From an uncultured Alphaproteobacteria bacterium (GTDB taxonomy: Bacteria; Pseudomonadota; Alphaproteobacteria; UBA7985): a stretch of DNA of 64,000 nt. Below the pieces are notes generated by a model that worked only from the letters and a program-made list of their open reading frames with translations, did not search any database and was not told where the DNA came from. Numbering within the stretch: position 1 is the first letter of the stretch; every line of letters starts with the position of its first letter. The position numbers and the translations under genes are program-made. Positions 10,039 to 21,618 of the stretch are shown piece by piece. The stretch covers positions 1-64,000 of the forward strand of contig CAJQLX010000022.1 of NCBI GenBank assembly GCA_905479265.1, given 5' to 3'.

Positions 10039-11232
10039 CTAGGCGCGGTATTTGTTGGCCAGCGGCTTGTACCGAGACGGCCAAGACCGTTCTGGACCGG
10101 TATCAATATGGATGAAGTTGGAGCTGGGGTAATATCCAACGCCGCCATCACTGGATTTCAGCGCAGCAACGTGGACATCCTTTATTTGCGCGCCATCGAC
10201 GAACATATCCATTGCCCGTCCCCGGACATGGTATGAATTCTTCGCCACGCCGCCAGATTTGGATCGCAGCATCTTGTTGGTCTCTGGGGAGCGATAGCCC
10301 GAAACCAGATGCAGAATGGCGCGGTCATGTCCTCGCGTCCGCATGGCAATTTCATGCGCGGTATCAAACAGCGCGCGGTCAATGTCGCGCACCTGGTCAT
10401 TTCGGTGATCGCGGAGCAGGTGGTTCAACTCTGCCAAAGCGCCTTCGTCATAGCGCCCGTTGGAGACAAACTTGGCCCGCAGACGCTCGCCTGTATGAGT
10501 GCTTTGAATGGTGACTGTCTTGGCGTCAGCATCGGCAATGCGCACAGTCGAGCTTTGACCCGGCAGGCTGGATCGGTTGGCTGACGAGCCGCTGACCACC
10601 GAGCGATTGGTGGCTGTCGCGACCTGTGTTGATCGATCTGTGCCGTTGTCGGGAACCAGATTGGGGACCGTGCGGTGCGCGGGAATGTCGAGCGAGGCGC
10701 GCATGCCGGGCAGGGGGGCCAGTTGTCGGCTGGGGGTGTTTTCTGGGATCAACCGAGGCGCAGGTTCCGGTATCGGCTGGCCGATTTTGGGAATGATGGG
10801 CGCGATGGGCTCAATCAGATTTTCCTGCCGCACGTCCAGCAGGGCCGCGAGCATGGCGTCCAAGTCTTCGCCGGTTTCCTTGTCCACGTAGCGCAACGTT
10901 TCGTCGCTGACTTGCAGGTTCAGATCAATGTCAGCGTATTCGATAAGCTCAACCGGCAGAACGTCGTGCAGGTTAGCGCGCTGCAGCATGAGATCATTCA
11001 TGGGGAGCTTGTCGAGGCCAAGATCCGAAAACGCCATACGGTCAGCAACGCCCACGCGGGTTCCGCGATATAGGCCATAGGCTGCGCCAGCGGTGCCAAG
11101 GGCAAGAAATGACTGTAAAACCGCCCGTCGGCTTGGGCTTTCCGCAGCTGAGCGGGCTGCTAACCGGCCATTGCCGATTGCCTCCGCCAAACTGTCCAAA
11201 AGACCGTGCATTTTATGTTGGTTGCCCCACAT
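10039..11232 (-). CDS. DUF882/YcbK-like (M15-type) protein with Tat-type signal
   Basis: VSGYRSPETNKML, SYHVRGRAMDMFV, FIHIDTGPERSW; SRRAVLQSFLALGTAGAA twin-arginine signal. Confidence 0.88.
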   Translation of the reverse strand: MWGNQHKMHGLLDSLAEAIGNGRLAARSAAESPSRRAVLQSFLALGTAGAAYGLYRGTRVGVADRMAFSDLGLDKLPMNDLMLQRANLHDVLPVELIEYADIDLNLQVSDETLRYVDKETGEDLDAMLAALLDVRQENLIEPIAPIIPKIGQPIPEPAPRLIPENTPSRQLAPLPGMRASLDIPAHRTVPNLVPDNGTDRSTQVATATNRSVVSGSSANRSSLPGQSSTVRIADADAKTVTIQSTHTGERLRAKFVSNGRYDEGALAELNHLLRDHRNDQVRDIDRALFDTAHEIAMRTRGHDRAILHLVSGYRSPETNKMLRSKSGGVAKNSYHVRGRAMDMFVDGAQIKDVHVAALKSSDGGVGYYPSSNFIHIDTGPERSWPSRYKPLANKYRA

Positions 11233-11413
11233 CGACCTATAATTCCGCCGCGTATCAAACTTAAATAGTCAAAAGGCGCGTAATCACACCCAAAATATCG
11301 CCAGTTTATACGTGCAAAAATTGTGCTAAGCAACGCAAAAAGTCGCTCATTTGAAGCAGAATGCCATATCAAAGCGTTGGAATTACGGCATTCCTTGGCG
11401 GTTGCCGGCTTCG

Positions 11414-13003
11414 CTAAAGCAGGCGGGTGATGAGGTCTTTATCCAAGTCGTAAATATCGTTCGCGAGTTGCAAGCGCCCGTCTTTGCCGACAAAGGCCGT
11501 CATGTAAGACAGAAAAACCTGCACAGACTTTGCCGGACGCGCGACTTCAATTTGACCTGCGTTCATGGCTTGCCGAATGCGGCGACTGTCCCAAACCGTG
11601 TCTTTGAGCATGTATTCCGCGAGCGCTTTGGGCTGGGACACTCGAACACAGCCGGATGAATGCGCGCGATCCTGTCGGCTGAATAGGTTGCGGGTGGGGG
11701 TATCGTGGAGGTAAATCGCCTGATCGTTCGTCAGCGAAAACCGAACAGCGCCGAGCGGGCCATGCGTGCTGGGTGGCTTACGCAGCGTGATTTTCGATGA
11801 AATGTTCTCGTCGAACCAATCCACCCGGTAAGGGTTTACAATCTGACCGCCGAGGTAGACTTCGAAGCCTTGCGCGATGGCGTAGGCGGGGTCTGCTTGG
11901 ATGCTCTCCAGATAATCTTTTTCCAAAATCGAGCGCGGAACCGTCCAATCGGGTGAGAATTTCAGGGACGTGATGCGATCAGACAAAATGGGCGTTTGGC
12001 GCGTTTGCCGCCCCACGACGACGGCCATGTTGAGCACGTCTTTGTCACCGTCACGAGCGACCAGCGAGAAGTCTGCAATGTTCACGCGTACGTGCCGCGG
12101 CGTTTCCAACCGGTCTTCCCACCGCAAACGCTCCAGATTAGCGAGGACGACGCCGAGGCGCTGGGTGGGCGAGGTGTTCATCCGCTTTTTGGTGTTGGAG
12201 CCGATGATGCCATCAACAGACAAACCGTTGCGCCGTTGGTAGCTTTTCACCGCTTCAAACAAGCCGTCATCGAAGAACGCAGGGTCGGCTACTGCAGCGG
12301 TGCTGCTGTAGTCGCCTGCTGCGGTCAAGTGCTGGCGCAATTGGGCGACGGTGGGGTGCGAAATGCCGCGCTTGAGCAATGGTCCCGCGTCGATCTGTGA
12401 CGGCGCTTGGGACGACAGGTTGCGAATTCGGGACAGATAGCCTTGGAGCGCGATGTACTCCGGTTTTTGGGGGGCCAGTCCCTTGAGAAACGCGTCGAGC
12501 CCTGTGTTCTCGTCGAAGTCCAGCAGGATTTCTGAGGGCTGCTTCTTCAGTGATTGGGGATAGCGCCCGTTATAGATGTCTGACGCATAGCGAAGTGTTG
12601 CCGCAGTTAGAACCAAATCTCGCCGCGCAATGTTGGTCAGGTCATAGGACTGGGACAGGTCATCCATCCCCAGCGCCCAATAGTTCGCAGGCTTCAAACC
12701 ATGATCACCAGAGGCCTGCATCACCTTGAGCGCATCGACGGTATCTGCGCGCCAATTGAAGTCTTGATAGAACAGCGGTTGGTAGTTGCGGCGTGCGTAA
12801 TAGTCCAACAGGTCGGTCCGGCTGAGGCCAAAGGTGCGCACGTCTCGGGGGATTGCCCCGGTCAGCATCTCCCGCATGATACCGTCAGAGCTGAACCCAT
12901 CGGTTGCTGCGTCTTGAGCCGGTATCGCAAGCGGCTGAGAAGCGACAGCGAGACCACACAGGACGAGAGAACTGGCCGCTAGAATTCGGAAAGCGCGAAG
13001 CAT
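11414..13003 (-). CDS. L,D-transpeptidase (YcbB/LdtD-like)
   Basis: Peptidoglycan-binding repeat SYQRRNGLSVDGIIGSNTKKRMN; catalytic YLHDTPTRNLFSRQDRAHSSGCVRV. Confidence 0.92.
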   Translation of the reverse strand: MLRAFRILAASSLVLCGLAVASQPLAIPAQDAATDGFSSDGIMREMLTGAIPRDVRTFGLSRTDLLDYYARRNYQPLFYQDFNWRADTVDALKVMQASGDHGLKPANYWALGMDDLSQSYDLTNIARRDLVLTAATLRYASDIYNGRYPQSLKKQPSEILLDFDENTGLDAFLKGLAPQKPEYIALQGYLSRIRNLSSQAPSQIDAGPLLKRGISHPTVAQLRQHLTAAGDYSSTAAVADPAFFDDGLFEAVKSYQRRNGLSVDGIIGSNTKKRMNTSPTQRLGVVLANLERLRWEDRLETPRHVRVNIADFSLVARDGDKDVLNMAVVVGRQTRQTPILSDRITSLKFSPDWTVPRSILEKDYLESIQADPAYAIAQGFEVYLGGQIVNPYRVDWFDENISSKITLRKPPSTHGPLGAVRFSLTNDQAIYLHDTPTRNLFSRQDRAHSSGCVRVSQPKALAEYMLKDTVWDSRRIRQAMNAGQIEVARPAKSVQVFLSYMTAFVGKDGRLQLANDIYDLDKDLITRLL

Positions 13004-13125
13004 CAGGAGACCTTATCGACGGATTAGCAGAAACAGTGATATGCATTACTCGTTTAGGCGAGTGAATCGCCATCACATGTTGTGTATATCAAATTTGTAC
13101 AATGCGTGAAAAGGGAGCGGCGCAT

Positions 13126-13602
13126 ATGGGGCTAGACATGAGTATTCACAATTTGAAGATTTCGACCATTTTTGCGGGAACTGTGGCGCTTGCCTTGGTC
13201 ATGTCCGGATGCGCGTCGACTGATGACCCAAACGCGGCGGTCATTGCTGCGGCGAATTCAGGCCTCAGCACGCAATTGCTGCAAAAGAGCCTGACGGTCG
13301 AAGCCGGGACGGAGCAGTCTGCGCTGGAAGCTGCGGTGAGCACGGCGGTCTGGTCGCCCAGTGACAAACTCAAGGCTGACGTATCGGAATATTTCGGGCA
13401 ACTTGGCCCCAAAGCCTTTGCTGTGACGCCGCCAACGGACACGGGCGCTCAGTCGTGGGGCAGCATCCACGGCGCGGATTCAACGCAGGAAGCACAGCAG
13501 GACGCCCTGCAGATTTGCAGCAACGTCGCCAGTCAGCGCGGCATCAATTTGCCGTGCTCGCTCTTGTTCATCGAAAATTCGCAGCAGCCACTGGGGTGGT
13601 AG
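13126..13602 (+). CDS. Putative lipoprotein with DUF4189-like domain
   Basis: Lipobox LVMSGC; FAVTPPTDTGAQSWGSIHGADSTQEAQQDALQIC. Confidence 0.6.
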   Translation: MGLDMSIHNLKISTIFAGTVALALVMSGCASTDDPNAAVIAAANSGLSTQLLQKSLTVEAGTEQSALEAAVSTAVWSPSDKLKADVSEYFGQLGPKAFAVTPPTDTGAQSWGSIHGADSTQEAQQDALQICSNVASQRGINLPCSLLFIENSQQPLGW

Positions 13603-13627
13603 GTGGCGTTCTTGGGCGCGCGGTGAT

Positions 13628-14230
13628 TTAGGGCGCCAACCAAGCCGCTCGTCTTTGCCCAGCAAGGCCATAATCAAACAGCAACCGCCGGTGACTGCCT
13701 TTGAGCGACAGGACTTCCATGCGGTCCGCCGTCAGGTGCAGCACCCGAAAATTCTTCCGCGCCCGGCTGAGATCGTCGGCGGTCATGTCATCGACAGCAA
13801 TGGTGGTGTTTTCAGGCTCCAACATCGCCGTGCCGGGTTCCACGGTGTTGGCGTAGATGGTCTTGGTGGCAAGGGTCAGCTTGGCCCACGCAAGCTCCGT
13901 ATATTCCTTGCGGGTATCGAGCATCTCGATCCGCCCCATGACCGTCACCTGCAGTGATTTGCGTGGGTCGTAAAATGACAGGCTGGCGTGCTTGGCTTTG
14001 GGGATCACAGCGGCCTTGCGAGAGCGCGCGTCGGTGTGCATTTCAAACCGCTTGGCCGGACGGTCCAACCCCCGGAGCACCACAGTGCGCGGAACGGGCG
14101 TAAAGCCGTCCAGATAGCAAAGCGTTGGCCAATGAAAAGCATGGCGTGGTTTTTGGACACCTTCCCTGAGTTCATTCCAAACCACGTCGTGGCCCAGCTT
14201 CAGATCATCAAAGGGCGAAGGTTCGTTTGA
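13628..14230 (-). CDS. Pyridoxamine 5'-phosphate oxidase-like flavin-binding protein
   Basis: RTVVLRGLD...FEMHTDARSRKAAVI, SLSFYDPRKSLQVTVMGRIEML. Confidence 0.85.
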   Translation of the reverse strand, partial: SNEPSPFDDLKLGHDVVWNELREGVQKPRHAFHWPTLCYLDGFTPVPRTVVLRGLDRPAKRFEMHTDARSRKAAVIPKAKHASLSFYDPRKSLQVTVMGRIEMLDTRKEYTELAWAKLTLATKTIYANTVEPGTAMLEPENTTIAVDDMTADDLSRARKNFRVLHLTADRMEVLSLKGSHRRLLFDYGLAGQRRAAWLAP

Positions 14231-14232
14231 CA

Positions 14233-14958
14233 TCAGCCCGCCAACCGTGCGGCTTGGGCTAAGTCCGCCCAATTGTGCTTGGAGGCAAGATGCGCATACA
14301 GCGGCGCGAGCCATCCTTTTTCCCGCCAAGCGAGGAAGACGCCTTCGCTGACTTCGCTGAGGCGCTGTTCGTCTACAATCAGAAACCCGCCTAGTTTAAG
14401 CGACTGCGTTTCGCCTAATTCAATTTCACGATCATCTTCGACCAGGATTCCTGCGTCCTGAAAGGCTCGTAACATCGCAAGGCTGTCTTCCCATTGGCGA
14501 TTGAAATCGGCGCAGAACGTGAGGGCTTCGTTGAGAAATGGCGTGGGTTGGCGGTTTTCAAACAGCTTGTCGCCCCGATCTTCGGACAACCGCCCGCTCG
14601 ATTCCTCGACCCCCAATACCATGCGTTTGCTTTCCGGGTCAGACATCAGCAAGAACGGATACCGCCGAATATAGGCCGGGATATACGCGCTGGGACGCCA
14701 CTGCCCAGCCTGATCAATGAACAGGTTCCCGCTGTCTTTTATGCCAACAATGCACACCGGAGACATGGGTGCTTGGGGCGTAAAAACGATTGGATAACAG
14801 CGGCTTGCGGTCTGAAACTCAACAGCGGTTAGCGGCAGGGATGTAACCTCACGCGCATATCCAAAGCTGTAGGCGGGCAACAAGCGCATGCTGTTGTGCC
14901 GCCCAGCCGTCACGGGGGCTGGATTGGAGTATAGCGGTGGTTGGCGCTTGGCGCTCAT
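14233..14958 (-). CDS. SapC family protein
   Basis: LPLTAVEFQTASRCYPIVF, WRPSAYIPAYIRRYPFLLM, FNRQWEDSLAMLRAFQDAGIL. Confidence 0.88.
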   Translation of the reverse strand: MSAKRQPPLYSNPAPVTAGRHNSMRLLPAYSFGYAREVTSLPLTAVEFQTASRCYPIVFTPQAPMSPVCIVGIKDSGNLFIDQAGQWRPSAYIPAYIRRYPFLLMSDPESKRMVLGVEESSGRLSEDRGDKLFENRQPTPFLNEALTFCADFNRQWEDSLAMLRAFQDAGILVEDDREIELGETQSLKLGGFLIVDEQRLSEVSEGVFLAWREKGWLAPLYAHLASKHNWADLAQAARLAG

Positions 14959-15233: not shown

Positions 15234-15677
15234 ATGGCTGAGAAGCCTAAAAGCCCGAACGAGCTGCTTCAGATAAGGGAGCTGCTGTTCGGAGACGAGA
15301 AACGTGACATAGATGAGCGCGTTGGCGGTCTGGAAAAGGATGTGGTCGCAGTCCGCGATAACCTTGCCGACGTCAGCACCACGTTGACCCAGAAAATTGA
15401 AACGGCGAATTCTGGCGTCAGTGATGATGTCCGAGCGCTGAACGAGGAAATGCTTTCTCGGCTCAATGGGATGGATCAAACCATCGCGGACAACAGTGCC
15501 GCAGCCTCTGAATCCCTGTCCCTGGCCGTTGGCAATTTGACCTCTGAGTTAAAAAGCCTTGGCACGCAGTTGAACGAGACCACGCGAAAACTCGACGAAG
15601 AGCGCGAGCGGCGTGAGATGTTGTCCAACGGGCTGCGGGCTTTAGCTGACGCTATGATGTCGCCAACAACGTCCTAG
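15234..15677 (+). CDS. Coiled-coil hypothetical protein, first gene of small-GTPase locus
   Basis: ORF; N-terminal LLQIRELLFGDE motif then long heptad-like region. Confidence 0.7.
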   Translation: MAEKPKSPNELLQIRELLFGDEKRDIDERVGGLEKDVVAVRDNLADVSTTLTQKIETANSGVSDDVRALNEEMLSRLNGMDQTIADNSAAASESLSLAVGNLTSELKSLGTQLNETTRKLDEERERREMLSNGLRALADAMMSPTTS

Positions 15678-15737
15678 CCAGCCTTTTGGCCTGTGCTTTG
15701 AACCGATTTTGCTTTTTTGTGACGGAGGCTCCCACGC

Positions 15738-17702
15738 GTGAGCACCGATGACCAGTTTCCGGTGAATGACCTGGACGCCCTGCGTGCGTTGATCCTTGGG
15801 GAGGATGATGCTGCGGTGCGTTCGGTCAGTAAGCTGGCCCGACGAATTGATACTGTTGAAGAGATGCTGCGCGATGATCCTGCGTCGGTCGAGCGGCTGC
15901 AGGCTGTGTTGGGCGATGTCCTGCATGGGCTGGAGGGCGACAAGCGGAGATTGGTGCAGGAACGGCTGACGGCTTTACTGCTGACCAACATCCAAAACGA
16001 GATCAAAGCCGCAAAGCCCAGCTTTGTGCAGGCGATTTACCCGGTTGCGGGCGGCTTGGTTCGCAAGGGTATACAGCAAGCCATTTCTGAGCTGCTGGAA
16101 GTGATCGAAGAGCGCCTCTCCGAGCCGGCCACAATCTACAAACGCGCACAAATCCGGTTTCAGGCACTGATCACGGGCAAGCCCGAGGCTGAAATCTGGT
16201 TGCGTCAGACCGGGCTGTTTCATGTCGATCGGATCCTGATGGTGGATCGGGCTTCGGGCGCTGTTATTACGGGCTTGCGTCAGGATCGAGACGGAACGGC
16301 GACGGACACCATCCATTCGACGGATTCCATTCAGGGCGAAGATCAAATCGTCTCCGGCATGCTGACGGCGATTATGTCGTTCAGTCAGGAAGCCTTTGGC
16401 GAGGGTGGCGGTGGCGAGCTATCGACGTTGGAGTTTGAAAACAGCCAATTGCATGTCAAGGCGACGCCGCTGGTGCTGCTGGTCATTCGCACCATCGGCA
16501 CGCCGCCAGCAAAGATCGACAGCATCATCGAAAACCGCTTCGACCGCATGGTGACGGACAACGCCGACGCTCTGGGCTCGTTTGATGGCAGTCTGCCCAA
16601 TGGGGCGCGATTGGAGATTCAGTCACAACTCCGTCGCTTGCTGCGAGAGCTGCGCAAGGCGGAAAGCGAGGGCCTTCCTTCGCGCAAATCGGGCGCACGG
16701 CGGCCTATTATGACCTTTGTGATGGCATTGGGCGGCGTTCTGCTGGTGGCGCTGGTGCTGATCGCAATCCTCAACGCCATTCGCATCAACGGGAACGTTG
16801 CGCGGGTTCAGAACACCATTGATGATGTTGAGCAATTGCAGGCCTATCCCATCGACGCCGACTATGATCGCTCGAAGGCCAGCGTGGTTGTGCGCGGTTT
16901 GGTGCCAGATGCTGCCTCAGCCGGGCGGCTGGAGACCCACTTGCGAGAAGACCACCCACGCTTGGCGCTGAGCTTTGCGCTGTCCAACATTTCCACCGAT
17001 GCCGTGCGGCCCATCTTGCGCGGGCCAAGGATCGAGCGGGAGGCCAATTCTGCCGGCGTGAACCAACTGCGGGACGAAGCGTTTATACGCGACACGATTA
17101 TCTTGGATCTGGAGCAGCAAATCGGCGACTTGCGCTTGGCGATGGCGGGCACCGAAGCGGTGGATGCCGCGCAATCCTATCCGACGCTGACCTATGATCT
17201 CGACCCAGATTTGGGCGCGCTGAGGAATCAGATTGGCGGAACGCTGCTCACAGCGTTGAAGGCCAAGCGGCGTTTGGCGGGGCAAGCGGATGGCGCGGGC
17301 GATCTCTTCGGTCTGGGCGGCGGGGGGCTGTATTCCCTTGAGGCCGCGCAGCTGGATGAGCAAACCGTTGCGGGGACGTTGATTGGCTTCAACGCTGCGG
17401 GCAGCTTTACAGACGTTGAGCTGGCGCTTGAAGCGACACGGTTGGTGGCGGAATTGCTCGCAACGAAACCCCAGGGCGTAAAGCTGGAGATTCTGTCGGT
17501 TGTCAGGCCTGTCGCCGGGCGAGAATTGCCGGAGAACATGGATCGCTTCATCGCGTCCAAAGCCCGCGCGCTGCTGATCGCCCAAGGCGTGAAACCCGAC
17601 ATGATGCAGATCCGTACCGGCGGTAACGCGGCTGTGGTCGCGGAAATTGATCCTGCGTCATGGCGTAAGTCACATTATGTTGGTTTCCGGCTTGCATATT
17701 AG
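15738..17702 (+). CDS. Membrane protein: N-terminal LxxLRxLIxGED motif, putative roadblock/longin-like region, TM helix, BON-like segment, OmpA-like C-terminus
   Basis: DLDALRALILGEDD; LFHVDRILMVDRASGAVITGL...IVSGMLTAIMSFSQEAFGEGG; TM MTFVMALGGVLLVALVLIAIL; C-term ENMDRFIASKARALLIAQGVKPDMM. GTG start. Confidence 0.7.
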   Translation: MSTDDQFPVNDLDALRALILGEDDAAVRSVSKLARRIDTVEEMLRDDPASVERLQAVLGDVLHGLEGDKRRLVQERLTALLLTNIQNEIKAAKPSFVQAIYPVAGGLVRKGIQQAISELLEVIEERLSEPATIYKRAQIRFQALITGKPEAEIWLRQTGLFHVDRILMVDRASGAVITGLRQDRDGTATDTIHSTDSIQGEDQIVSGMLTAIMSFSQEAFGEGGGGELSTLEFENSQLHVKATPLVLLVIRTIGTPPAKIDSIIENRFDRMVTDNADALGSFDGSLPNGARLEIQSQLRRLLRELRKAESEGLPSRKSGARRPIMTFVMALGGVLLVALVLIAILNAIRINGNVARVQNTIDDVEQLQAYPIDADYDRSKASVVVRGLVPDAASAGRLETHLREDHPRLALSFALSNISTDAVRPILRGPRIEREANSAGVNQLRDEAFIRDTIILDLEQQIGDLRLAMAGTEAVDAAQSYPTLTYDLDPDLGALRNQIGGTLLTALKAKRRLAGQADGAGDLFGLGGGGLYSLEAAQLDEQTVAGTLIGFNAAGSFTDVELALEATRLVAELLATKPQGVKLEILSVVRPVAGRELPENMDRFIASKARALLIAQGVKPDMMQIRTGGNAAVVAEIDPASWRKSHYVGFRLAY

Positions 17703-17746
17703 CCAAAATTATCGTCCTTGAAGATGCAATCTTTAAGGGGATAAGC

Positions 17747-18286
17747 ATGGCCAATCTCGCCCAAAAAGTATGCATTGTGGGGGAGTTTTCCGTTGGCAAA
17801 ACGTCGCTCATACGGCGGTATGTGCGCGGATTGTTTTCCGAGGACTACAAGGCCACCTTGGGTGTGAACTGCTATAATCACGCCGGGCAGTTCCAGCACC
17901 CGACCACGGGCGAAACCCATTCGATCAACCTGATCCTGTGGGACATCGAAGGTGGGCAGCAAAAATCGTCGATGCTGAACACGTATTTGATCGGCGCGTC
18001 CGGTGCGTTGTTGATTGCTGATTTGACCCGTCCAGAGACGATCCAAGCGGTTGATCACTATTTCAACCTGCTCGAAAGCGTAATTCCCGGACGGCCAAAA
18101 GTGCTGGCGTTGAACAAAGTCGATTTGATGGATGGCAGCCCAACGATGACCCAAACGCTCGCGATGGCAAAAGCCAAGGCGAAGGCGTTGGGGCTTCGGT
18201 TGGTGCAGACATCGGCGTCAAAAGGCAATCAGGTGCCAGAGCTTTTCGCTGGCCTCGCCTCCGACATTCTGCGCTTGCGGGACTAG
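17747..18286 (+). CDS. Ras/Rab-like small GTPase
   Basis: G1 GEFSVGKTS, G3 WDIEGG, G4 NKVD, G5 TSASK. Confidence 0.9.
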   Translation: MANLAQKVCIVGEFSVGKTSLIRRYVRGLFSEDYKATLGVNCYNHAGQFQHPTTGETHSINLILWDIEGGQQKSSMLNTYLIGASGALLIADLTRPETIQAVDHYFNLLESVIPGRPKVLALNKVDLMDGSPTMTQTLAMAKAKAKALGLRLVQTSASKGNQVPELFAGLASDILRLRD

Positions 18287-18290
18287 CCCC

Positions 18291-19274
18291 ATGCAGCCAT
18301 CGAACCCCATCCAATTGGCACAAGAATCCCTGCTCAATGCCGGCATCATTAACGTCGTCATCATCGATCGTGGAGCGATGATTCAGGCTGTGCAGGGTGC
18401 CTTGGTCGCTGACTGGGATGTGGGACAACCCGTTACAGACCAGCTTTATGTTCTCGCCGGGATGGAAGCGTTGATCATGGCAATGGCGGATCAGGGTACG
18501 GCCATAGATCCCATCGAGCTTCCAGCCGTTTTTCTTGGCGGCAATCACGAAGACGGTGACTTGGGCGTTTCCGTGCGGATGTCCGCCTTGGACGGGGCCG
18601 GCGTCCTTTTGCTTTTGCGCCCGCTAGAGGCTGACGGCGCGGTTGATCAACAGGCGGTCCAGCAGCACAATGACTTGGCCTTGCTGGGGGGGCAGGTGGC
18701 AAAGTCTCAGACTCAGGCCGAACTGAACATGACGGCCCGAGAAACGCTGTTTGACACGCTAAGGTGGGGGTTCAGGGCGCCCTTGAGCAAGCTTGCGCAG
18801 GCGGCAGAAGGGCAGGAAGCCTTGGCGTCGCTCGCCCATGATGCCCTGCACGCGGTCGATGATTGGCTCGACTTGCTCAGCCTGCGCACACAGCTCGAAG
18901 ATGAAGACGGTTTGCCGACTGAACCCATTGCTTTGGCGTCTCTCATGGACGGCTTTCGGGCGTCTTTTGATGGCCAGATCAGCGCGTCAGACGACAGTAT
19001 CGCGGCGGCGAGCGGGCGTGTGCTGGGTTCCGCAGCGATCCTGTCCAAAGGAATATCTAGCATTTTGCGGGCCGCAGAAGGCTCGCTCAGCCTCGTCTTC
19101 ACTGTCGAAAACGCCAGCGCGGTTTGGACGATTCGTGGGGTTGAGAACGGTTCTGCCTTAGTGGCCGATTATCGCTTGGAACTGGCCCGCTCTGCGCTCA
19201 TGTCTTTGGCGGGGTCGGTCAGCGTCGGTGACGACAGAGTCGTTTTCAGCGTTCCACTCAAGGCTGACGCTTAG
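18291..19274 (+). CDS. Degenerate PAS / histidine-kinase-like protein
   Basis: PAS-like N-terminus; linker QQHNDLALLGGQVAKSQTQAELN; H-box-like TLRWGFRAPLSKL without His; C-term VADYRLELARSALMSLAGSVSVGDDRVVFSVPL resembles HATPase end. Confidence 0.6.
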   Translation: MQPSNPIQLAQESLLNAGIINVVIIDRGAMIQAVQGALVADWDVGQPVTDQLYVLAGMEALIMAMADQGTAIDPIELPAVFLGGNHEDGDLGVSVRMSALDGAGVLLLLRPLEADGAVDQQAVQQHNDLALLGGQVAKSQTQAELNMTARETLFDTLRWGFRAPLSKLAQAAEGQEALASLAHDALHAVDDWLDLLSLRTQLEDEDGLPTEPIALASLMDGFRASFDGQISASDDSIAAASGRVLGSAAILSKGISSILRAAEGSLSLVFTVENASAVWTIRGVENGSALVADYRLELARSALMSLAGSVSVGDDRVVFSVPLKADA

Positions 19275-19281
19275 GCTGGCG

Positions 19282-20640
19282 CTAGGCCAAATCCAGCTCA
19301 ACAATCACCCGCAACCCCCCGCTGGGCGAGTCGGTCAGTGTCATGCGAGCACCGTGGCGGTCCATGACCTTTTTGACGATTGCCAAACCCAGCCCTGTTC
19401 CACCCGTTTTACGGTTGCGCGAGTCCTCCAAGCGCACAAAGGGCTGGAACACGGCGTCACGCTGCTCAGGGGCAATGCCGGGGCCGTCGTCGTCAATGAT
19501 GACGCGTGCGGCTGTACCGTCTTCGGTGCGTTCGGTGGAAACACGCGAGCGCAAGCCGTACTTCGTGCCATTTTCGATCAGATTGAGGAACCCGCGCTTC
19601 AATGAGGTTCGGTCACCAATGATCGTCATGCGGCCACCGCTTTCGAATGCTGCGTCCTTCCCTTGATCTTCAAGATTATCGCAAATGGATGTCAGCAAAG
19701 ACGGCAAGGATAGCTTTTCGAACCCAATATCGTTCTGGTCCGAACGGGCAAATGTCAGCATATCGTCGAGGATCGCTGCCATTTCGTCCGCATCTTCAAG
19801 CGCCTTTGCGCGCTCTGTGGGGTCTTCGAGCTTTTCCGACCGCATGCGCAGACGAAACAGGCCGGTGCGTATGTCGTGTGAAATGGCTGCCAGCATGGTT
19901 GTCCGCTCGGCGAGATAGTCTTTGACCCGCTGCTGCATGGCGTTGAGCGTCTTTGACACAGCGCGCACTTCAGCCACGCCGCGTTTTTCATCCAGTGGTG
20001 GGGCTTCAATGTCGTCAGCCAACCGCAGCGTCGCTTCCTTGAATGTCCCCAAGGGGTTCCCGAGCCGATAGACGAGGATCATGGAAAGGGTAATGATCGT
20101 TGAGCCGATGACGAACAGATAGAACAATTGGCGCAGCAAATCATCGCGTCGTTTGAAGGGCTTGCGCAGCACAAAGGCGACCAAAGTTCCGTCAGACAGC
20201 AGGACTTCGAGCCCGTCGATCTCTGGTCCCGGACGTTGCAAGCCGGCAAGGATCGACAACACCTCCATCGCCCCCGGCCCCCGTCGCGTATCTTGGCTGA
20301 AGGTGTTTTGCGTCAAAAAGCGAAAGGTGAGCATGGAGGCTTGGAAATTGTCAGCAGAGGGTTCCGTCGCATCCGGTTGCAAGGCCACGTCGAAGTAATT
20401 TGACGTGACGGCGCGCAAAACTTCTGGGCGCAGCGAGGCGGGGGTTCGTTCCAGCACTTCGGCCACCGCCATCGCTTGATCGGCAAAAGGCGGGCCTTTG
20501 CCGACTTCTTCGCCATAGGTCTGAACGATCAGAAATCCGCCGACCGAAATCACAATGGACCAACTCAGGCCGATCACGACCAGCAGGAAAGCGCGGGCGA
20601 TGTCCAGTGGGGTGCTTTGTTCAAGCAGGGGCCGAAGCAC
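19282..20640 (-). CDS. EnvZ-like sensor histidine kinase
   Basis: HAMP region, SHDIRTGLFRLRMR H-box, NLIENGTKYG, DDGPGI, GGTGLGLAIV. Confidence 0.93.
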   Translation of the reverse strand: MLRPLLEQSTPLDIARAFLLVVIGLSWSIVISVGGFLIVQTYGEEVGKGPPFADQAMAVAEVLERTPASLRPEVLRAVTSNYFDVALQPDATEPSADNFQASMLTFRFLTQNTFSQDTRRGPGAMEVLSILAGLQRPGPEIDGLEVLLSDGTLVAFVLRKPFKRRDDLLRQLFYLFVIGSTIITLSMILVYRLGNPLGTFKEATLRLADDIEAPPLDEKRGVAEVRAVSKTLNAMQQRVKDYLAERTTMLAAISHDIRTGLFRLRMRSEKLEDPTERAKALEDADEMAAILDDMLTFARSDQNDIGFEKLSLPSLLTSICDNLEDQGKDAAFESGGRMTIIGDRTSLKRGFLNLIENGTKYGLRSRVSTERTEDGTAARVIIDDDGPGIAPEQRDAVFQPFVRLEDSRNRKTGGTGLGLAIVKKVMDRHGARMTLTDSPSGGLRVIVELDLA

Positions 20641-20645
20641 AGATC

Positions 20646-21356
20646 CTAGCCAATCTCAGCGGAGAAAATGTAACCCTTGCCGCGCACCGTTTTGATGAAC
20701 TGAGGGTTCTTCGGGTCGTCTTCGATCTTTTGGCGCAGCCGTGAAATGGTGATGTCGATGGAACGGTCAAAAACGTCTGCTTGCCGTCCCTTGGTAATGT
20801 CGAGCAACAAGTCGCGGGTCATCAAGCGGTTGGGCCGATCGATCAGCGCGGCGAGCAGGTCAAATTCGCCCGACGTGAGATCAACCAAGACATCCTCGGG
20901 GTCACGCAGCTCGCGCCGCACAACATCCAGTTTCCATCCCTCAAAGGTCGCCACGCGCTTCCGGTCTTCGGATTGCGTCGCAACCATGCCTTGCCGACGC
21001 AGCGTCGCTTTGATCCGCGCCACCAATTCGCGAGGGGAGAAGGGCTTGGTCAGGTAGTCATCTGCGCCCATTTCCAGGCCAATGATGCGATCGGCTTCGT
21101 GGGTCATGGCCGTCAGCATGATAATCGGAATATTTGAGTCCGCCCGCAGCGTGCGGCAGATGGTCAGGCCGTCTTCACCGGGCAGCATCAAATCAAGAAC
21201 CACCAGATCGATGGTCTGGTGCTCCAGAATGGTTTTCAGATCACGCCCGGTCGAAGCGGTGGACACTTCGAACCCGGAACTGCGCAGGTTTTGTTCCAAC
21301 AGGCTCCTGATTTCTGGGTCGTCGTCCAGAATTGCGATATGGTTTGCGTCGCTCAT
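20646..21356 (-). CDS. OmpR-family response regulator
   Basis: Receiver ILDDDPEIR...VVLDLMLPGEDGL...MLTAMT...YLTKPF plus C-terminal winged helix RSIDITISRLRQKIEDDPKNPQFIKTVRGKGYIF. Confidence 0.95.
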   Translation of the reverse strand: MSDANHIAILDDDPEIRSLLEQNLRSSGFEVSTASTGRDLKTILEHQTIDLVVLDLMLPGEDGLTICRTLRADSNIPIIMLTAMTHEADRIIGLEMGADDYLTKPFSPRELVARIKATLRRQGMVATQSEDRKRVATFEGWKLDVVRRELRDPEDVLVDLTSGEFDLLAALIDRPNRLMTRDLLLDITKGRQADVFDRSIDITISRLRQKIEDDPKNPQFIKTVRGKGYIFSAEIG

Positions 21357-21618
21357 GGTGTCTTCCGCCATTGGGGTGATGGGCTAAAAGTATCGTATTT
21401 CCCGATTTGTACCATGCGGCTGAAATATTCTGAAACAAACCGAGCGTCCTTGTTTCAATATTCCGAGCATTTCGACAAACATCTGCGGCTCAAATCGCCT
21501 ATATTCAATCCACCAAAGCAAACACCAAGGGGTGCCGCACTCGTTCTCGACGTCAGCCGTTCATGCGCTGGCAATCCCCCACCGGGAGCGAGATTGGTAC
21601 CCGACAAAGGAGTAACCC

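Follow-up and report, generated by a model that had tools for sequence, protein, structure and literature searches.

Here we describe a four-gene small-GTPase locus of an uncultured alphaproteobacterium of a marine lineage (GenBank assembly GCA_905479265.1; 2.9 Mb, 96% complete). The window analyzed comprises positions 1 to 64,000 of contig CAJQLX010000022.1 (64,000 nucleotides (nt), forward strand), in which four open reading frames (ORFs) follow one another on the plus strand with intergenic gaps of 60, 44, and 4 nt, as read from the window. The genes are as follows.

15234..15677, + strand: gene 1, P0001, cytoplasmic coiled-coil protein of 147 amino acids (aa) (ORF; orthologues in G001 and G003)
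15738..17702, + strand: gene 2, P0002, membrane protein of 654 aa with a GTG start (ORF; homologues; hidden Markov model (HMM) match beside the GTPase in most loci)
17747..18286, + strand: gene 3, P0003, Rup-type Rab-like small GTPase of 179 aa (Pfam Ras match; PDB relatives; survey of the G3 motif)
18291..19274, + strand: gene 4, P0004 (hereafter P4), output protein of 327 aa (AlphaFold2 (AF2) model; Foldseek; alignment)

An original prediction, made from the sequence alone, had called four tightly spaced same-strand genes here. They are borne out at these positions, and all four are intact and in the same order in the congener G001, while G003 carries genes 1-3 and the start of gene 4 up to its contig end. 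The same succession of genes recurs in genomes of the same taxonomic order and at dozens of loci from cyanobacteria and other alphaproteobacteria. In comparison with G001, nonsynonymous divergence (dN) is far below synonymous divergence (dS) for genes 1-3; for gene 4, dS was not computable.

The GTPase and its assignment to Group 1 Rup

P0003 is the sole match to Pfam Ras (PF00071) in the genome (E 1.5e-24), in agreement with the Ras/Rab-like GTPase originally predicted, and all five motifs from G1 to G5 are present (GEFSVGKTS, T37, WDIEGG, NKVD, and TSA). Its best solved relatives are Rab23, followed by Rab38/32, and its best sequence matches are cyanobacterial and chloroflexal loci. The G3 motif, WDIEGG, is without the catalytic Gln after DxxG, which is also missing in 76 of the 83 relatives scored in the G3 survey.

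The Rup family of prokaryotic small GTPases was defined by Wuichet & Sogaard-Andersen 2014, who reported that, among prokaryotic proteins, it is the one most closely related to Rab/Ras/Rho (PMC4316618). Their Group 1 Rup is likewise cyanobacterial and chloroflexal, is without the G3 Gln, and is encoded in a four-gene neighbourhood for which membrane signalling was proposed. Its membrane protein carries a 'conserved domain of unknown function', a transmembrane segment, and a C-terminal OmpA domain; Rup output proteins have an invariant N-terminal Gln and are 'typically' diguanylate cyclases/phosphodiesterases or histidine kinases; and no Rup was found coupled to MglB (PMC4316618). As of 2014, no Rup member had been tested experimentally and the fold of the partner domain was not known (PMC4316618). 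At 179 aa, P0003 is within the 150-240 aa small-GTPase range of Group 1 Rup, and based on gene neighbourhood and loss of the G3 Gln, the locus is almost certainly a Group 1 Rup small-GTPase system. The combination of genes, regarded as new in the original prediction, had thus already been described (PMC4316618), a circumstance that the prediction itself had listed among its grounds for refutation, and the locus is a variant of the Rup system with a predicted pseudokinase, otherwise ordinary in its gene set.

The original prediction had also proposed a polarity module by analogy with MglA/MglB of Myxococcus and Thermus, in which, as here, a small GTPase is encoded with a protein of the roadblock/longin superfamily. 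A roadblock-related domain beside a Ras-like GTPase would fit such a module, but the best matches of the GTPase are Rabs, its G3 motif and neighbourhood are of Rup type, a Pfam search of the genome returned no Robl_LC7 (PF03259, MglB-type) gene, and the longin-like domain lies inside a membrane protein rather than in a free MglB. Given the type of GTPase and the missing MglB, we rejected an MglA/MglB-type polarity module as highly improbable.

A predicted longin domain in the membrane protein

The layout of P0002 consists of a helical N-terminus, a predicted longin domain, a transmembrane helix, and a periplasmic, degenerate OmpA-like part, with the following features.

16185..16670, + strand: predicted longin-fold domain, residues about 150-311 (AF2; Foldseek; hhalign)
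16701..16787, + strand: predicted inner-membrane helix, residues about 322-350, RRPIMTFVMALGGVLLVALVLIAILNAIRI (hydrophobic stretch in the sequence; kept in congeners)
16788..17699, + strand: periplasmic part with a degenerate OmpA-like domain at its C-terminal end (hhalign chain)

Structure prediction with AF2 for residues 1-325 (54 sequences) gave a mean predicted local distance difference test (pLDDT) score of 80.7, mostly exceeding 90 over residues 162-310, and the modelled topology (strand-strand-helix-strand-strand-strand-helix-helix) follows the order of the longin fold (b-b-a-b-b-b-a-a). A Foldseek search of the PDB with the domain model returned 27 matches at E <=0.001; among the matches listed, 50 of 50 were of longin or roadblock type or related to these in fold, including TRAPP Bet5/Trs23, Mon1-Ccz1, CPLANE, MglB, AP-sigma, zeta-COP, and Ragulator. 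TRAPP Bet5 had a template modelling (TM) score of 0.70 by target length. Since TM scores are higher to TRAPP longins (0.50-0.70) than to MglB (0.37-0.43), and the model ends in two C-terminal helices, the topology favours longin over roadblock, a difference described in PMC10933270. Profile comparison using hhalign, against a roadblock profile built from roadblock proteins of other genomes, gave an in-register alignment with a probability of 61.8, versus <=0.5 for unrelated control profiles. Scans of the 654-aa protein and its family members found no Pfam or NCBIfam model covering the domain, with a weak Robl_LC7 match (E 0.022) in only 1 of 54 domain members, and searching PDB sequences with an HMM built from the domain alignment returned chance helical matches only. 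Based on the model and its structural relatives, the domain very probably adopts a longin fold, which backs the roadblock/longin-like region suspected in the original prediction.

While longin/roadblock domains have been listed as present in bacteria in general (PMC4917890), our literature search, with De Franceschi 2014 and Levine 2013 outside its coverage, found no paper linking the longin fold to Rup; given that listing and this coverage, our claim that the link is new is a limited one. At one locus (L029), the coiled-coil gene has a gene for a longin-domain membrane protein on either side within a single operon, a layout that is also seen in G219 and L134 and suggests a longin heterodimer.

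The periplasmic part of P0002 has no Pfam OmpA or BON match, and its cyanobacterial homologues match both. The two are connected through a chain of hhalign comparisons (98.7 for genus sequences versus relatives of the same order, and 99.0 for these relatives versus the cyanobacterial BON plus OmpA set), with a direct comparison of genus sequences to the cyanobacterial OmpA segment reaching 56.8. Within the OmpA-like segment, Arg stands for Asp and Ile for Arg at two positions, which we take to be those normally used for peptidoglycan binding in OmpA. Because both are replaced, the C-terminal domain, OmpA-like in descent, is probably not a standard peptidoglycan binder. The BON/OmpA-like periplasmic parts of the original prediction are therefore recovered, via profile intermediates only, in a form with neither a Pfam match nor the putative binding residues.

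Co-occurrence and co-loss of the GTPase-linked parts

A GTDB genome scan with seven GTPase queries yielded 80 loci from alphaproteobacteria, cyanobacteria, Chloroflexota, and one Bacteroidetes metagenome-assembled genome (MAG); a plasmid tblastn search produced three or four divergent records only, which were used as seeds. At these loci, found by the GTPase alone, a longin-domain protein was encoded in the fetched flank in 72 of 80, a PAS-type output protein was adjacent in 58, and both were present in 52, many of the flank-missing cases being contig ends. Across 290 alphaproteobacterial genomes, a set that is not fully independent, the GTPase was found in 7 and the longin domain in 8, with all 7 shared and spanning six families, leaving the longin domain in 1 of 283 genomes without the GTPase (Fisher p 2.5e-13).

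The coiled-coil protein, for which Pfam gives only weak matches of coiled-coil type, is 72% identical to the orthologues that occupy the corresponding position in G001 and G003. Two of its segments can be distinguished.

15264..15335, + strand: conserved coiled-coil motif LLQIRELLFGDEKRDIDERVGGLE, a putative GTPase-linked element (motif survey; loss in congeners)
15426..15662, + strand: C-terminal half of the coiled-coil protein, retained in GTPase-less congeners (37-43% identity to the short proteins of L020, L021, and L022)

An ORF of 100-330 aa carrying the motif [IV]R[DE][IL][IL][FL]G was found at 56 of the 80 loci, across phyla, and at none in the reversed-sequence control. Chloroflexota coiled-coil proteins (L034, L041, L043, L048, L078, L081, L082, L083) carry an IRDIIFG-type motif twice in tandem, and a related LRxLIhG motif occurs at the N-terminus of some longin-domain proteins.

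In three congeners (G002, G004, and G005; completeness 79, 63, and 94%), the GTPase, the longin domain, and the N-terminal region of P4 are missing from the whole assembly, and the IRELLFG-type motif of the coiled-coil protein has been lost as well. At the same locus, with the SapC/PNPOx pair on one side and the two-component/ClpA genes on the other, these congeners retain (L020, L021, and L022 in G002, G005, and G004, respectively) a protein corresponding to the coiled-coil C-terminal half together with a transmembrane/periplasmic protein of 357-384 aa that is 46-50% identical to that of the window. An assembly artefact was rejected as the origin of this short form, whose structure is shared by three separate MAGs and whose flanks are conserved on either side. 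In a tree built from flanking proteins, with G006/G008 as outgroup, G002/G004/G005 form a sister clade within the genus, separate from the window clade (support of 71 for the split and of 99 for the window clade), and because G006 carries the complete operon within these same flanks, loss is a simpler reading of the short form than an ancestral state. Because the GTPase, gene 4, longin domain, and motif disappeared together, these elements delimit what is linked to the GTPase, and those that were kept have their own function.

These distributions also bear on whether the longin domain is instead a homodimerisation module of the membrane protein, with control of the GTPase falling to a different protein, for example the output protein. 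Longin/roadblock domains do serve in dimerisation and in SNAREs, and G104 keeps two longin copies and a coiled coil at a locus where no GTPase or gene 4 was found; however, co-occurrence of the domain with the Rup GTPase is near-perfect, exactly this domain was lost along with the GTPase in three congeners, and its closest fold relatives include subunits of Rab guanine nucleotide exchange factors (GEFs), so that we consider this reading unlikely. The G104 locus (L133, G104:C12:12000-26000) has longin-domain open frames of 1120 and 502 aa and a FAD monooxygenase-like gene in the position of the GTPase.

The output protein and the proposed signal path

The AF2 model of P4 (pLDDT 84) comprises a PAS domain, a long helix, a hairpin resembling a dimerisation and histidine phosphotransfer (DHp) domain, and an ATPase-like domain, with Foldseek matches to PAS-histidine kinases, RetS, and NifL. 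Scanning P4 against Pfam and NCBIfam yielded no usable match. The predicted structure thus keeps the fold of PAS, DHp, and catalytic ATP-binding (CA) domains, backing the degenerate PAS/histidine-kinase-like protein of the original prediction. Two residues are of particular relevance.

18660..18662, + strand: Gln124 in VQQHN, probable counterpart of the Gln reported as invariant in Rup output proteins (alignment; gene-4 survey)
18765..18767, + strand: Trp159 replacing the phospho-acceptor His of the H-box, LRWGFRAPL versus SHELRTPL (alignment; Trp in G001 too)

The N-box, G-boxes, F element, and lid are likewise missing from the alignment, and P4 is predicted from these replacements to be a catalytically dead kinase (pseudokinase) in this genus. 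Relatives of the same order have intact kinases with SHELRTPL as gene 4, and hybrid kinases or an adenylate cyclase take this position elsewhere. P4 retains the QxxN motif that contains the Gln reported for Rup output proteins (Q124).

A dead kinase could also point to decay of the cytoplasmic arm in this genus, with P4 turning into a pseudogene and the arm around the GTPase persisting as a remnant that the sister clade has already shed. The loss of the P4 kinase centres, the loss of the whole arm in that clade, and the rate of P4, the fastest-evolving gene (dN 0.52 versus 0.16-0.25 for the others), are in line with such decay. Against this, the P4 frame is open in G000, G001, and the part of G003 on its contig, the GTPase motifs are intact, dN is far below dS in genes 1-3, and sequence identity between this species and G001 is 50% in the PAS region and 58% in the DHp region (30% in the ATPase-like region), all of which makes decay a rather unlikely explanation.

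Directly past the operon lie a convergent HAMP histidine kinase (19282-20640) and an OmpR-type regulator (20646-21371). With P4 adjoining these genes and resembling RetS in fold, it might be a RetS-like inhibitor of this two-component system; yet the pair is kept in congeners without P4 and lies outside the operon in other lineages, and such a role is quite improbable. Because it is conserved in congeners without the GTPase, the pair is probably independent of the operon. Upstream (10039-14958), the window encodes an M15-type peptidase, an L,D-transpeptidase with a peptidoglycan-binding domain, a PNPOx-like protein, and SapC, in a synteny kept within the genus. Scans of the locus for sigma-70 promoters and terminators performed no better than on shuffled sequence.

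We propose that the state of the envelope would be sensed in the periplasm and relayed through the transmembrane helix to the longin domain, which may act as a platform for the Rup GTPase, binding it and setting its nucleotide state, by analogy with MglB, TRAPP, and Mon1-Ccz1. The coiled-coil protein would scaffold this platform through its IRELLFG-type motif, and GTP-bound Rup would engage the PAS/signalling-helix region of P4. RetS and NifL act by protein binding, without phosphotransfer. In most lineages, where gene 4 is a histidine kinase or cyclase, output would be phosphotransfer or a second messenger; because the kinase is predicted to be dead in this genus, output here would most likely proceed via the PAS-DHp dimer, which would serve as an adaptor for binding or as a regulator of the GTPase, in the manner of RetS/NifL. 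P4 may also supply the missing catalytic Gln in trans, as proposed for output proteins in 2014 (PMC4316618). We assign the explanation as a whole (a Group 1 Rup system with a longin platform and a non-catalytic output) a probability of roughly 0.6, and rate the order of signalling from periplasm to longin domain, GTPase, and output at slightly short of even odds. The surface-to-cytoplasm signalling module of the original prediction fits this explanation and its component calls were good, while its polarity part is without direct support.

Several points weigh against this explanation. The Gln is replaced by His in relatives of the same order and in several Neomegalonema loci; the fast evolution of P4 makes weak constraint on it possible; G104 keeps the longin domain with no GTPase found; and the coupling of the parts is inferred from neighbourhood and co-loss. 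The longin domain could, in addition, be an effector or a GTPase-activating protein (GAP) and not an exchange factor. TRAPP and Mon1-Ccz1 serve as GEFs for Rabs. MglB is both GAP and GEF (PMC6785124), and given these precedents the longin domain may act on Rup in either direction.

Among known systems, Group 1 Rup (PMC4316618) shares with this locus a Rab-like GTPase without the G3 Gln, a coiled-coil protein, a membrane protein with a conserved domain and transmembrane segment, and a signalling output protein with an N-terminal Gln region, and differs in that here the kinase is predicted to be dead, the OmpA part is degenerate, the conserved domain is assigned a longin fold, and a partial-loss form exists in congeners. 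The eukaryotic TRAPP core (Bet5/Trs23) and the Mon1-Ccz1 Rab GEFs likewise have a longin-fold platform and a Rab-like partner GTPase, whereas the bacterial protein is a single-gene, membrane-anchored one that is similar by fold alone. The actinobacterial conservon (CvnA-D) also joins a histidine kinase, a roadblock-type protein, and a GTPase in one operon, but its GTPase is MglA-type, its roadblock protein is free, and its membrane component is different. RetS and NifL, compared with P4 by their PAS/histidine kinase fold, are not encoded with GTPases. New beyond the 2014 description (PMC4316618) are the longin prediction for the conserved domain, the predicted pseudokinase output, and the informative partial loss. 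More broadly, the locus might represent a vertically maintained bacterial pair, a Rab-like GTPase and a TRAPP-like longin platform carried by a protein that spans the membrane, with a dead-kinase adaptor in this genus, such that the Rab-longin partnership would be older than eukaryotes and present also outside Archaea; we regard this extension as doubtful.

Longin-type domains control Rab switches in human cells, and the membrane partner here carries a predicted one. If the domain is a longin, the system would offer a testable bacterial counterpart of Rab-longin regulation and would extend the coupling of roadblock/longin domains to small GTPases from MglA to the Rup family. Congeners without the GTPase arm define the segments that belong to it, and the dead kinase, if as inactive as predicted, would imply that the GTPase arm can exist without phosphotransfer.

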